Below, one piece after another: positions 223 through 18,743 of a DNA stretch of 36,804 nucleotides (positions are counted from its first letter, which is position 1; the number at the start of each line of letters is the position of its first letter). The notes under the pieces are model-generated. The model worked only from the letters and a program-made list of their open reading frames with translations. It ran no database searches and was not told the origin of the DNA. Made by a program: the position numbers and the translations under genes. Origin of the DNA: Holdemania filiformis DSM 12042 (GTDB lineage Bacteria > Bacillota_I > Bacilli_A > Erysipelotrichales > Erysipelotrichaceae); contig NZ_GG657555.1 of NCBI RefSeq assembly GCF_000157995.1, forward strand, positions 58,809 to 95,612, read 5' to 3'.

Positions 223-251
223 TTGACAGAGAAGTTACCTTGTGATAACAT
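223..251 (+). promoter_or_regulatory. Promoter of a short non-coding unit
   Basis: TTGACA (223-228), 17-bp spacer, TAACAT (246-251). Exactly the same two hexamers and spacing occur at the feoA2 promoter (15696-15724). The expected start of transcription is near 258. A degenerate operator copy (AGTTAC, six bases, ATAACA; 233-250) covers the spacer and -10, as at feoA2. Confidence 0.65.
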
Positions 252-258
252 TATGTCA

Positions 259-280
259 TAAGTTAGATAACACTAACTTA
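259..280. promoter_or_regulatory. Perfect palindromic operator, DtxR-type candidate
   Basis: Eight-base arms TAAGTTAG (259-266) and CTAACTTA (273-280) are perfect inverted repeats around six bases. The core TTAG-N6-CTAA is shared with sites at 15735-15752 and 16267-16284 next to the second feo operon, and in weaker form with 547-564 and 15706-15723. It lies on the predicted transcription start of the 258-490 unit, a position suited to repression. The binding protein is inferred to be the DtxR-family product encoded at 3012-3413. Confidence 0.6.
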
Positions 281-452
281 ATCGCAGATTTAATCTCCTC
301 TTTCCTGCGATACTGAACAAGAGGGCTGCGGTCCCGGGTTTTCACTCCTGCTGGACAGGATGAAAATTCCGCAGCTTCCACGAACAGATCATCCTAACCT
401 CTGTATTTCCTAACTATTTCCCCAATTAAAATCCAATCAGGATGATCGGATC

Positions 453-490
453 AAGGCTTTTCCACGCTGGCAGCGGAGAGCCTTTTTTCT
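453..490 (+). terminator. Rho-independent terminator of the short unit
   Basis: AAGGCT (453-458) pairs with AGCCTT (479-484), with an inner stem CGCT/AGCG (465-468, 472-475), followed by a T-rich run. It lies about 80 bp before the feoA1 promoter and so separates the short transcript from feoAB1. Confidence 0.75.
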
Positions 491-3011: not shown

Positions 3012-3413
3012 ATGGAACGCATTAATGAATCATCAGAAAATTATCTGGAAAGCATATTGATTCTGGAACAGCGCAACCCGAGCGTCAGAATGAGCGATAT
3101 CGCCGCCATGCTTCATGTCAGCAAGCCCAGTGTCAATAAGGCGATGGGCGTCCTGAAGGATGCCGGATATATTCATCAGGAAGTTTATGGTACGATCCAT
3201 TTAACCGAGGCCGGCCGGCAATATGCGGAAAAGGTTTACAGCCGGCATGTCTTGTTCAAGCGGTTTTTGACGGAAATGCTTGAGATCGACGAGGCGACGG
3301 CAGAGGAAGACGCTTGTCACATGGAACACTGCGTCAGCGATGAAACCATGGATAAACTGCGGATTTTCTTAACCGAAGCTCTGGAACGCAGCGAACAGAA
3401 ATCAAGTCAATAA
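3012..3413 (+). CDS. DtxR-family metal-dependent repressor
   Basis: A 133-residue cytoplasmic transcription regulator made of the N-terminal winged helix (about 5-70) and the metal-binding dimerisation domain (about 71-125). It has no C-terminal SH3 domain, so its length is like MntR. Aligned to DtxR it keeps His79, Cys102, Glu105 and His106 at the same numbers (A-C-H-M-E-H), while Met10 of the primary site is Asn and Glu83 and His98 of the ancillary site are Lys and Glu. MntR has Glu at the Cys102 position, so Cys argues for iron sensing. It sits directly after feoAB1 and is the obvious candidate to bind the palindromes near both feo loci. GAGGA (2997-3001) is ten bases before the ATG. Metal choice is inferred. 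Confidence 0.88.
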   Translation: MERINESSENYLESILILEQRNPSVRMSDIAAMLHVSKPSVNKAMGVLKDAGYIHQEVYGTIHLTEAGRQYAEKVYSRHVLFKRFLTEMLEIDEATAEEDACHMEHCVSDETMDKLRIFLTEALERSEQKSSQ

Positions 3414-15695: not shown

Positions 15696-15724
15696 TTGAC
15701 ATAGATGTTAGATTAAGATAACAT
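15696..15724 (+). promoter_or_regulatory. Second feo operon promoter
   Basis: TTGACA (15696-15701), 17 bp, TAACAT (15719-15724). Identical hexamers and spacing to the promoter at 223-251. Confidence 0.75.
15706..15723. promoter_or_regulatory. Operator 1 of the second feo operon
   Basis: TGTTAG (15706-15711), six bases, ATAACA (15718-15723): an imperfect inverted repeat covering the spacer and -10 box. Occupation would block RNA polymerase. Candidate DtxR-type site. Confidence 0.55.
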
Positions 15725-15734
15725 ATAGACTGTA

Positions 15735-15752
15735 AGTTAGCCAAAGCTAATT
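15735..15752. promoter_or_regulatory. Operator 2 of the second feo operon
   Basis: AGTTAG (15735-15740), six bases, CTAATT (15747-15752), just downstream of the expected transcription start. It is 29 bases from operator 1; the two sites at 233 and 261 are 28 bases apart, nearly the same layout. Confidence 0.55.
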
Positions 15753-15788
15753 AAACAGATCTTTTTACTTAAAGGAGGAGTGAGGTTG

Positions 15789-15998
15789 ATGCCGTTAACC
15801 TTGGCCCAGGTTGGACAGATCAACGCTGTAAAACGAATCGGCGGGAAGGAAGAAGTTCGGCGTTTCTTAAATTCACTCGGTTTTATCGAGGGCAGCGAGG
15901 TCATGCTCATTTCGCAGAACCAGGGCAATGTCATCGTCAAGGTGAAGGAGTCCCGCGTGGCCATCAGTAAAGAAATGGCCCGCAAGATCATGATATAA
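15789..15998 (+). CDS. feoA: FeoA-domain protein (second locus, first copy)
   Basis: A 69-residue FeoA/SH3-like protein, more diverged than the other two copies: MPLTLAQVGQINAVKRIGG, then the E-E-V-R-R-F-L-N-S-L-G-F-I-E-G segment in place of the usual R-x-R-L-x-D-M-G. Such tandem FeoA proteins, one divergent, occur in Firmicutes feo operons; the divergent one may be regulatory or adapt FeoB. The ATG at 15789 is ten bases after AGGAGG; TTG at 15786 and GTG at 15780 are alternatives. It ends 15 bases before the next feoA. Confidence 0.87.
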   Translation: MPLTLAQVGQINAVKRIGGKEEVRRFLNSLGFIEGSEVMLISQNQGNVIVKVKESRVAISKEMARKIMI

Positions 15999-16013
15999 AA
16001 AGGGGGGGATAAA

Positions 16014-16235
16014 ATGAAAACGTTAAAGGATATCCGGGTCGGAGACACCGTTTCCGTCAAAAAGCTTCATGGCGAAGGCGCGGTTAAGCGCCGGATCATG
16101 GACATGGGCATTACGAAGGGTGTCGAAGTCTATGTGCGCAAGGTTGCGCCGCTGGGCGATCCGGTGGAGATCAACGTCCGCGGTTATGAATTATCGCTGC
16201 GCAAAGCCGACGCCCAGATGATCGAAGTGGAATAA
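16014..16235 (+). CDS. feoA: Ferrous iron transport protein A (second locus, second copy)
   Basis: A 73-residue FeoA of canonical type, with KRRIMDMGITKG, V-R-K-V-A-P-L-G-D-P-V-E-I and RGYELSLRK. It is much closer to FeoA of the first locus (631-858) than to its immediate neighbour, with 29 identical bases shared, so it was probably copied together with feoB between the loci. AGGGGGGGA precedes the ATG. A terminator-like hairpin follows at once, before feoB2. Confidence 0.92.
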   Translation: MKTLKDIRVGDTVSVKKLHGEGAVKRRIMDMGITKGVEVYVRKVAPLGDPVEINVRGYELSLRKADAQMIEVE

Positions 16236-16258
16236 AGGCCGGAGGGCCTGTCTTTTTT
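16236..16258 (+). terminator. Terminator-like hairpin inside the feo operon
   Basis: AGGCC (16236-16240) and GGCCT (16245-16249) around GGAG, followed by GTCTTTTTT. It begins immediately after the feoA2b stop and precedes feoB2, so it could lower feoB2 expression relative to the two feoA genes. Confidence 0.55.
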
Positions 16259-16266
16259 GGATATAT

Positions 16267-16284
16267 AGTTAGCTTAAGCTAATT
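16267..16284. promoter_or_regulatory. Palindromic operator between feoA2b and feoB2
   Basis: The core TTAGCTTAAGCTAA (16269-16282) is a perfect 14-bp palindrome and fits AGTTAG-N6-CTAATT. It lies 17 bases before the feoB2 start. The central CTTAAG is also the centre of the B. subtilis MntR box, supporting a DtxR/MntR-type binder. No clear promoter is visible beside it, so it may control an unseen promoter or act as a roadblock. Confidence 0.6.
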
Positions 16285-16300
16285 TTAGGAGGGATAGAAC

Positions 16301-18472
16301 ATGGCAGTTAAAATTGCGCTGGCCGGTAATCCGAACAGCGGAAAAACAACACTTTTTAACGCTCTGACGGGTTCCAATCAATTTGTGGGCAACTGGCCGG
16401 GGGTTACGGTCGAAAAGAAGGAAGGCAGGCTGAAGGATCAGAAGGACGTTACGATCACCGATCTGCCGGGGATTTATTCCCTTTCCCCGTATACGCTGGA
16501 AGAAGTCGTCGCCCGGAATTATCTGATTCACGAACGTCCCGAAGCGATTCTGAACATCGTTGACGGCACGAATCTGGAACGCAATCTGTACTTAACCACA
16601 CAGCTGCTGGAGCTGGGCATTCCGGTCGTCGTTGCCGTCAATATGATCGACGTCGTCAACAAAAACGGCGATCAGATCGACACGCAGCAGCTCGCCAAGG
16701 CGCTGGGCTGCGAGGTCGTCACGATTTCGGCACTGAAACAAACAGGAATTCAGGAAGCTGCGGCGCTGGCCGTTAAATTGGCGAAGCAAGGGCAAGCCTT
16801 GCCGCCGGCTCATCGTTTCAGCCCGAAAGTGGAAAAGGTGCTCAACGCGATCATTTCACAACTACCTGCAGAAATTCCTTCGGAAATGCAGCGGTTCTAC
16901 GCGATCAAGCTGTTTGAGCGCGATGATAAGATCACGGCGATGATGAACACCGTTCCGGATGTCGGAGCGCTGATTCAAAAAGCGGAAGACGAGCTGGACG
17001 ACGATGCGGAAAGCATCATCACCAATGAACGGTATAATTATATCGGTTCGATCATTCGTCAATGCTATACGAAGAAAAATCAATCCCGGATGTCGGTTTC
17101 CGATAAAATCGACTCCATCGTGACCAACCGCTGGCTGGCGCTGCCGATTTTCATTCTCGTCATGGCGCTGGTCTACGCGATTTCGATGGGCGGCTGGTCA
17201 ATCTCAATCGGCACGATGGGCACGGACTGGGCCAACGATGTGTTGTTCGGTGAGTGGGTGCCGGGCGCCGTTGACGCTTTCTTACAGACGATGGGCGTCG
17301 GCGGCTGGCTGGCCAGTCTGATTCAGGACGGAATGGTTGCGGGCGTCGGCGCAGTCTTAGGCTTCGTGCCGCAGATGCTTGTGCTGTTCTTCCTGCTCTG
17401 CATTCTTGAAGATATCGGCTACATGGCGCGGATCGCGTTCATTATGGACCGGATCTTCCGCCGGTTCGGCTTAAGCGGCAAGAGCTTTATCCCGATGCTG
17501 GTGGCGACTGGCTGCGGCGTGCCGGGGATCATGGCTTCGCGGACGATCGAACAGGATCGCGATCGGAAAATGACGATCATGACGACCGGATTCATTCCCT
17601 GCGGGGCGAAAATGCCGATCATCGGTCTGTTTGCCGGGGCGCTGTTCAACAATTCCGCTTGGGTTGCGACATCAGCGTATTTCATCGGCGTGGCCGCGGT
17701 GATTGTAAGCGGAATTATCCTCAAAAAGTTTAAAATGTTTGCGGGTGATCCGGCGCCGTTTGTCATGGAATTGCCGGCCTACCATATTCCCTCGGCATCC
17801 AATGTGCTGCGGGGAACGTGGGAACGCGGCTGGTCGTTTATCAAGCGGGCCGGTACGATCATTCTGTTAAGCTCGATTGTCTTGTGGTTCTTACAGGGCT
17901 ATGGCTTTGTGGACGGCGTCTTCCAGGCGGTTGAGGATAACAACAGCTCGCTGCTGGCGCTGATCGGCAACGCGGTGTCCTGGATCTTCTATCCGCTGGG
18001 CTGGGTCGGCGATATGGCGTGGAAAGCGACAGTGGCGACGGTAACCGGCCTGATCGCCAAGGAAGAAGTTGTCAATACCTTCGGTGTTCTTTACCATTAC
18101 AGCGGGGAACTGAGCGAAGCGGGCAATGAGATTTGGACGCTGATCGCGGCGGATTTCACGGCCCTCTCGGCGTACAGTTTCATGATCTTCAACCTGCTGT
18201 GCGCGCCATGCTTCGCGGCGATGGGCGCGATCAAACGGGAGATGAACAATCCGAAATGGACACTCGGGGCGATCGGCTACATGTGCGGCTTCGCTTACGT
18301 CATCGCGATGATCGTCTACCAGGTCGGCGGTCTGATCACGGGTGAAACACCGTTTACGATCTTCACGGTGATCGCGATGGTGCTGCTTGCGGCTCTGGTC
18401 TATCTGTTAATCCGGCCATATAAAGAAAGCCGGACGCTGGAAGTTGAACTGAAGGAAACGGCGAAAGTTTAA
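16301..18472 (+). CDS. feoB: Ferrous iron transporter FeoB (second copy)
   Basis: A 723-residue Fe(II) transporter. G-domain motifs: GNPNSGKTT (9-17), Thr36 in WPGVT, DLPG (54-57) and NMID (114-117). The membrane part has ATGCGVPGIMASR, then FIPCGAKMP, and a later L-L-C-A-P-C-F-A-A-M-G-A-I gate. Unlike FeoB1 it has an additional C-terminal pair of hydrophobic segments and a charged tail. It is followed by two small Cys-rich membrane proteins typical of FeoB neighbourhoods. AGGAGGG precedes the ATG. Sequence divergence from FeoB1 is substantial, so the two systems may differ in affinity or metal range. Confidence 0.95.
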   Translation: MAVKIALAGNPNSGKTTLFNALTGSNQFVGNWPGVTVEKKEGRLKDQKDVTITDLPGIYSLSPYTLEEVVARNYLIHERPEAILNIVDGTNLERNLYLTTQLLELGIPVVVAVNMIDVVNKNGDQIDTQQLAKALGCEVVTISALKQTGIQEAAALAVKLAKQGQALPPAHRFSPKVEKVLNAIISQLPAEIPSEMQRFYAIKLFERDDKITAMMNTVPDVGALIQKAEDELDDDAESIITNERYNYIGSIIRQCYTKKNQSRMSVSDKIDSIVTNRWLALPIFILVMALVYAISMGGWSISIGTMGTDWANDVLFGEWVPGAVDAFLQTMGVGGWLASLIQDGMVAGVGAVLGFVPQMLVLFFLLCILEDIGYMARIAFIMDRIFRRFGLSGKSFIPMLVATGCGVPGIMASRTIEQDRDRKMTIMTTGFIPCGAKMPIIGLFAGALFNNSAWVATSAYFIGVAAVIVSGIILKKFKMFAGDPAPFVMELPAYHIPSASNVLRGTWERGWSFIKRAGTIILLSSIVLWFLQGYGFVDGVFQAVEDNNSSLLALIGNAVSWIFYPLGWVGDMAWKATVATVTGLIAKEEVVNTFGVLYHYSGELSEAGNEIWTLIAADFTALSAYSFMIFNLLCAPCFAAMGAIKREMNNPKWTLGAIGYMCGFAYVIAMIVYQVGGLITGETPFTIFTVIAMVLLAALVYLLIRPYKESRTLEVELKETAKV

Positions 18473-18500
18473 AAGCCGGAATCGGCGGAAAGGAGAACAA

Positions 18501-18743
18501 ATGCTCGCTGCTATTCAAAGTTATTTTGGCGAAGGTGCTGTATTGTTGATGGTGATCGGCGCCTGCCTGTTGGCAATCCGCAGTCTGCGGCGGCAACATC
18601 GTCAAAAAGGCTCCGCCTGCGCAGGCGGCTGCGCGGGCTGCGGCATGAAGGGAATCTGTCACAGCGAGGGACTGCAGAACCCGCTGCTCAGCGCTTACCG
18701 GCACGATCATCCTCCGGGGCAATCGTCGCGTTATCCTGGTTAA
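18501..18743 (+). CDS. Small Cys-rich membrane protein, FeoB-associated type
   Basis: An 80-residue protein with one membrane helix (about 12-27, containing Cys22), a basic stretch (RSLRRQHRQK) and a Cys cluster C-x3-C-x2-C-x5-C (Cys40, 44, 47, 53). This layout matches the FeoB-associated Cys-rich membrane proteins found after feoB in Firmicutes, whose role is unproven but probably involves handling iron at the membrane. The C-terminal 25 residues are rich in His, Pro and Ser. AAGGAG precedes the ATG, 28 bases after feoB2, so it belongs to the feo operon. Confidence 0.75.
   Translation: MLAAIQSYFGEGAVLLMVIGACLLAIRSLRRQHRQKGSACAGGCAGCGMKGICHSEGLQNPLLSAYRHDHPPGQSSRYPG

Follow-up and report, generated by a model that had tools for sequence, protein, structure and literature searches.

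Small RNAs that spare iron have previously been placed mainly under the control of Fur (RyhB, PrrF, FsrA and IsrR) and, in mycobacteria, under that of IdeR. RyhB of Escherichia coli, which follows this iron-sparing logic, is Fur controlled and Hfq dependent. FsrA of Bacillus subtilis, also controlled by Fur and working with the FbpABC chaperones, binds Shine-Dalgarno (SD) sequences through a C-rich motif and shuts off iron-containing enzymes (PMC9410917). The iron-repressed IsrR of Staphylococcus, which has Fur boxes, is composed of several stem-loops and a terminator and presents single-stranded C-rich regions to the SD of Fe-S enzyme mRNAs (PMC9410917), its targets being fdhA, narG, nasD and gltB2. 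In Mycobacterium tuberculosis, the promoter of the short RNA MrsI (ncRv11846, ~100 nt) carries a site for the DtxR-family iron regulator IdeR (PMC8628891), and this RNA negatively regulates non-essential iron proteins (PMC8628891, PMC9410917), with a six-base seed that pairs onto hypF, bfrA and fprA. A 2022 review treats the RyhB-like RNAs as members of Fur regulons and lists none for iron-sensing DtxR (PMC9294342); MrsI predates this review. In the part of the literature that was covered, no papers on such RNAs in Erysipelotrichales were found.

We have analysed a window of 36,804 nucleotides (the whole stretch of DNA) from Holdemania filiformis DSM 12042, in which positions 223-490 would be a gene of their own, encoding a small RNA (sRNA) that acts in trans and spares iron. 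A sequence-only reading had suggested an iron-responsive sRNA at this place, an interpretation that the comparative evidence described below supports.

The small RNA locus upstream of feoAB

On the + strand, a sigma-70 promoter with a TG-extended −10 element is found at 223-251, with a −35 TTGACA (223-228), a 17-nt spacer and a −10 TAACAT (246-251) preceded by TG; both hexamers are kept in all four Holdemania loci. This promoter scores 10/12 and is the twin of the second feo operon promoter at 15696-15724. Taken alone it is weak evidence, since six promoter-like matches occur in the first 4 kb against 4.0 expected by chance. The start site placed from the −10 element gives an RNA of ~230 nt (258-490, + strand), and a palindrome, AAGTTAG-N6-CTAACTT (AAGTTAGATAACACTAACTT, 260-279), lies over this start; from box comparisons it is an operator of the DtxR-family metalloregulator type, and it doubles as the 5′ hairpin of the RNA.

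Folding of 258-491 gives the palindrome hairpin (259-280), three further stem-loops and a terminator (448-490), with a stability z of −4.3 and none of 200 shuffles equally stable. Stem-loop H2 (281-311) holds the C-rich, anti-SD sequence UCUCCUC in its loop (loop A). The long H3 (321-379) is variable in sequence and is the least conserved part, having diverged in the locus L009, and H4 (387-447) closes a long C-rich loop with a 9-bp stem. Within the latter, loop B (AACCUCUGUAUUUCCUAACUAUUUCCCC, 396-424) is the predicted partner of the mRNA leader of pyruvate:ferredoxin oxidoreductase (PFOR). The C-rich loops are mostly unpaired, the mean unpaired probability being 0.91 for ACCUCUGUAUUUCCUAACUAUUUCCCC. 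The intrinsic terminator consists of a strong hairpin and a TTTTTT run behind it; a simple terminator scan of the window did not flag it, probably because its stem is interrupted. The promoter and the rho-independent terminator noted by the sequence-only reading are present, and the C-rich loops are where it had placed them, while its TTAG-N6-CTAA palindrome on the start site proves to be longer, and in place of its two strong hairpins there are three stem-loops besides the palindrome and the terminator.

In alignments, each of the four Holdemania genomes examined has the sRNA unit ahead of feoAB, and the order of the folded domains is the same at the four loci. In L009, the most distant one, the flanks are poorly alignable while promoter, palindrome, loops and terminator persist, with loop A altered. 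Two compensatory changes are found in H4 (G-C to A-U and A-U to G-C) and four compensated pairs in the terminator; as many as these six pairs altered on both sides were reached in 1 of 500 shuffles. Pairing cells make up 86% of the stem alignment, compared with 78% when shuffled and 31-53% when slid. Loop B is the most conserved unpaired stretch of the sRNA, with AACCUCUGUAUUUCCUAACUAUUUCC best kept. The sequence-only reading had looked to relatives for conservation of hairpins and promoter, and these, as well as the terminator, are kept in the four Holdemania. The covariance search that it proposed, done with a model of H4 and the terminator (R1), returned exactly these four genomes at E ≤ 1e-18. 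No convincing match turned up in the other 142 of the 146 family genomes; weak matches (E 0.01-1) were rejected, as no box was nearby in the 20 loci inspected. A DNA search of 60 relatives gave one meaningful match outside Holdemania, namely the operator region in G038. Two matches (L006, L007) were discarded as short chance matches, and L005, detected via a 27-base piece, is the true sRNA locus of G001. No Rfam family reached the gathering threshold in the window, and none meaningful was seen at the locus with a relaxed threshold.

Short ORFs are present on both strands, as a small-protein gene would require, and one could also think of non-functional intergenic DNA whose RNA features arose by chance. 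However, no ORF with a start and an SD is common to the four Holdemania loci and no peptide explains the locus, as the sequence-only reading had judged; conservation tracks the stems and the unpaired loops, with compensatory changes, and the PFOR pairing test below also speaks against chance. Both of these explanations together are thus extremely improbable. With its own promoter and intrinsic terminator, the locus has, at the sequence level, the make-up of an independent non-coding gene, and the sRNA gene at 258-490 is almost certainly real.

The RNA lies directly 5′ of feoA (631-858, Pfam FeoA) and feoB (858-2852, Pfam FeoB_N/Gate/FeoB_C), on the same + strand, and feoAB carries a related box, so it could be regarded as a cis-acting 5′ leader or attenuator of feoAB that terminates unless a signal permits read-through. 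We consider this very unlikely, since feoAB has its own promoter, TTGACA-N16-TAAAAT (572-599, + strand), which is kept in all four species, so that the sRNA promoter is not its sole promoter, and neither an evident alternative structure opening the terminator nor an Rfam riboswitch match was found. An independent sRNA gene remains the preferred reading of the locus.

The operator box and its candidate regulator

Matches to AGTTAG-N6-CTAACT with ≤2 mismatches number four in the window, against 0.42 expected, and none of 100 shuffles reached four. One belongs to the sRNA, one to feoA and two to a second feoA-feoA-feoB operon (15788-18743), where they lie in the promoter (15735-15752) and between the second feoA and feoB, just 5′ of this second feoB (16267-16284). 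This second ferrous-iron operon, with its two DtxR-type boxes (15696-18743 in all), also encodes a FeoB-associated Cys-rich protein. The feoA box, a degenerate AAAGTTAGTTAATCTTAACA (545-564) that is absent in L009, lies 5′ of the feoA −35 element, in contrast to those boxes that cover a start site, and could serve as a roadblock against read-through from the sRNA. In the rest of the genome (G000), the box is best matched by two tandem copies that precede a FecCD/Peripla_BP_2 iron (siderophore) ABC operon and are conserved in G002 and G003. The Holdemania boxes mark both feo operons, this ABC operon and the sRNA.

The promoter-plus-box pattern is present in 55 of the 146 family genomes, compared with a single match for the reversed control pattern, and in 88 of 209 genomes of the order. 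Genes behind the boxes, named from their N-terminal sequences with Pfam run on the Holdemania ones only, include feoA/feoB, FecCD, siderophore-binding proteins, ZIP and Mn/Zn-type transporters, flavodoxin-like proteins and DtxR-family genes themselves (L097, L099); boxes with no terminator behind them mostly precede feo, ZIP, FecCD, flavodoxin-like or other metal genes. Since metal-uptake and DtxR-family genes stand behind such boxes, the palindrome, as judged by these neighbours, is a box of a DtxR-family metal regulon, with the TTAG-N6-CTAA core of that regulon. This core resembles that of DtxR/IdeR/SirR-type boxes. The sRNA promoter has its box in common with the feo and FecCD operons, and the sRNA is very probably controlled by this DtxR-family box, to which the feo-linked regulator described below would bind.

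Several other genes were seen behind such boxes. In L073, L286, L288, L289 and L297 the box is directly 5′ of a cofactor-dependent phosphoglycerate mutase-like gene (MKLVLVRHGESEWN...), whose product possibly replaces a manganese-dependent isoenzyme under metal shortage, and in L293 it precedes an enolase-like gene. A short flavodoxin/NrdI-like protein (MKYAYASRTGNVESI...) is encoded directly behind the box in L074, L076, L125, L126, L128, L133, L183, L267 and others, often with a second gene following; these regulon members are likely iron-free electron carriers or helpers of a Mn-dependent ribonucleotide reductase. In L063, L187 and L189 the box is followed by a lone gene, with its own terminator, for a 43-residue membrane peptide having a Cys-rich tail (CGCAGCSKCH) like that of FeoB-associated proteins.

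The likely regulator of the sRNA is encoded directly downstream of feoB (3012-3413, + strand). It is a DtxR-family metalloregulator (Pfam Fe_dep_repress and Fe_dep_repr_C), and its PDB matches show about equal similarity to MntR, DtxR and IdeR. From our reading of the alignment, the DtxR residues C102, E105 and H106 correspond to Cys, Glu and His in this protein; its position 10 is an unusual Asn. Cys/Glu/His at these three positions favours iron over manganese.

The same kind of sRNA could instead respond to manganese, or to manganese and iron, via an MntR-like family member. Several boxes of relatives do precede ZIP, Mn/Zn-type ABC and phosphoglycerate mutase-like genes, which must be conceded against our main reading, as must the fact that the palindrome would suit a manganese regulator from this family equally well; moreover, MntR is among the best PDB matches of the regulator, and Holdemania has a second DtxR-family gene. 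Yet the confidently assigned Holdemania boxes are those at the feo and FecCD iron-uptake operons, the regulator has a Cys like DtxR C102 where MntR has Glu (by the same alignment reading), an Fe-S enzyme is predicted as the target, and G001, in which the feo-linked protein is the only family member seen, still keeps the sRNA. A manganese signal is therefore unlikely, and iron is the preferred one. As for Fur, Holdemania has one Fur-family gene over the cut-off, and because it is adjacent to a rubrerythrin gene (L044 2442-2864 and L033), it is more likely PerR-like than Fur. The control by a DtxR-type protein instead of Fur, proposed from the sequence alone, gains support from the box in an iron-uptake regulon and from the adjacent regulator gene with its iron-type Cys ligand.

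PFOR leaders as predicted partners of the RNA loops

When SD-bearing genes were ranked for complementarity to loop B, the leader of the PFOR gene (C30:291658-295164; POR_N, POR and Fer4 domains) came first of 670, a sample from ~880 kb of the 3.93 Mb genome (G000), or about a quarter. The ranking used a local complementarity score in place of the duplexfold energy of the whole sRNA, which is misleading because it allows long internal loops. Loop B AACCUCUGUAUUUCCUAACU is computed to pair with the Holdemania PFOR leader GGUUAGAGAGUACAGGAGGUU along its full conserved length, interrupted by a single bulge and a single mismatch, and to cover the SD. All four Holdemania species have the same leader, GGUUAGAGAGUACAGGAGGUUUAACCAUG, including G001, in which the PFOR start region is 88% identical.

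Beyond PFOR, the enrichment of Fe-S genes in this sample is modest (four ferredoxin-type proteins, p = 0.004) and driven by PFOR itself; radical SAM proteins were not enriched among loop B targets of the 670-gene scan. Further Holdemania candidates with weaker support are rnfC and a DUF362 ferredoxin-like protein. In three species loop A is complementary to the rnfC leader, and rnfC is only a candidate because loop A differs in L009, which keeps the rnfC leader. The wider target list is uncertain, since anti-SD loops pair with many leaders. The feoA leader AUAGUUAG was rejected as a target of loop B, as it pairs in the window species and not in H. massiliensis or L009.

The boxes were also screened for the order promoter, box and then terminator ahead of any gene. 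In about ten other groups of Erysipelotrichales, the same promoter-box drives other short, terminator-ended RNAs without an ORF. The candidates are g75 (L080, L109), g71 (L101), g22 (L132), g24 (L177-L179), g32 (L111, L114, L115, L311-L315, L317, L319), g63 (L171), g21 (L192), g40 (L280, L281) and a well-conserved second-family RNA with the core CCCUCAUACUCCUAUUCAUCGUCAUU in g36, g38, g41 and g79 (L262, L263, L279, L290, L291, L298, L300, L308); L063/L187/L189 and L122, which apparently encode SD-bearing small peptides, were excluded from the count. Nearly all of these RNAs expose C-rich, anti-SD stretches, and the C-rich loops differ between groups. They are not feo leaders, because the RNA is divergent from feoA in g75 (G132, G152), precedes a TPP riboswitch and a transporter gene in g32, and is unlinked to feo in the remaining groups, that of g40 adjoining a tRNA-like region; this too argues against a leader function of the Holdemania RNA.

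The TPP riboswitches of g32, downstream of the RNAs, were the only Rfam matches in the loci of relatives. In L111, L114 and L115 this riboswitch follows the sRNA candidate immediately, together with a gene for a small membrane transporter, which makes for an unusual combination of iron and thiamine control; thiamine diphosphate is a cofactor of PFOR. The g40 RNA is very short, ~60 nt after the box, starts with AUAACCUCU and matches its own PFOR leader.

The sRNAs of the other genomes were selected before, and independently of, PFOR, and the PFOR leaders were collected afterwards. Written as sRNA loop with own PFOR leader, examples of the pairs are UCCUCUUUCG with CGAAGGAGGA (G137), CUCCUUUAUG with CAUAAAGGAG (G152), CUUUCCUUGU with ACAAGGGAGG (G124 and G098), UAAUUAUC with GAUAAUUA (G074), GUCCUCCU with AGGAGGAC (G102 and G034), AUGUUCUCCUG with CAGGAGGACAU (G195 and G200) and AUAACCUC with GAGGUUAU (G042 and G047). 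Own pairs were better than permuted ones at P = 5e-5 for 8 classes and P = 1e-5 for 11 classes, with the same outcome under ungapped scoring; P was 3e-5 without Holdemania and 2e-4 with the SD core neutralised. The pairing statistic was 53.7, compared with a mean of 3.5 (sd 8.1, maximum 30.5) in 400 draws of random leaders from the same genomes, and the control sRNAs were not significant in this test (reversed, P = 0.39; complemented, P = 0.13). Pairing is weak in the f2 group (g36, g38, g41, g79) and in g21, both of which contribute nothing.

The structure and its conservation, the common box and the PFOR complementarity, which co-varies between genera, are all computed results. A feoAB leader would leave the conserved unpaired C-rich loops, co-varying with PFOR leaders, unexplained. 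By this computed pairing with the mRNA of an iron protein, PFOR mRNA is quite probably a direct target of the sRNA, and the target prediction for the C-rich loops called for by the sequence-only reading has led to a bona fide Fe-S enzyme whose pairing tracks across genera.

Proposed mechanism and comparison with known systems

Taken together, the locus probably encodes a DtxR-controlled, iron-sparing sRNA that would block the translation of PFOR and probably of other Fe-S mRNAs. When iron is plentiful, the metal-bound feo-linked repressor would sit on the start-site palindrome and keep the sRNA off, and from the common boxes it would shut off the feo and siderophore-uptake operons at the same time. 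When iron is short, the repressor would leave, the sRNA would accumulate and feo and siderophore uptake would be released. By pairing with the PFOR leader, loop B would then cover the ribosome-binding site and block translation, so that PFOR, a large Fe-S enzyme, would no longer be made and the iron of its Fe-S clusters would be saved; loop A may hit further Fe-S mRNAs such as rnfC. Transcription, DtxR binding, iron as the signal, translational repression and the further targets are what we infer from the computed features.

The same arrangement may extend over the Erysipelotrichales, in two families and ~11 sRNA classes, with a DtxR-family iron repressor controlling fast-diverging sRNAs that have PFOR mRNA as their common target, loop and leader co-evolving; we lean towards this wider reading with some reserve. 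It looks like a widespread, undescribed iron-saving switch, because related gut bacteria carry similarly switched RNAs that mostly match their own PFOR mRNA. If true, it would be the first DtxR-controlled class of iron-sparing RNA in Firmicutes, as far as could be found. The central pyruvate step of anaerobic gut bacteria would then be linked directly to the supply of iron, PFOR being the main Fe-S entry point of fermentation. It would also offer a case of many unrelated-looking sRNA sequences co-evolving with one mRNA leader, with predictions testable in culturable gut anaerobes.

Among the known systems, RyhB has the same iron-sparing logic and an unrelated sequence, and FsrA, to which the Holdemania locus has no Rfam match, has the same use of a C-rich motif. 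The novelty of DtxR control is limited, because MrsI already has an IdeR box (PMC8628891). The locus and its relatives suggest that the same solution also arose in Firmicutes that rely on a DtxR-type iron regulator, PFOR being the constant target. MrsI is the closest analogue, being nearest by regulator; it comes from another phylum and is likened by description to the Holdemania RNA, which matches no Rfam family. In the Holdemania RNA, C-rich loops would cover the SD, and PFOR is the predicted main target. IsrR, with no sequence match at this locus, is the nearest in anatomy, in that both are built of stem-loops with C-rich regions.
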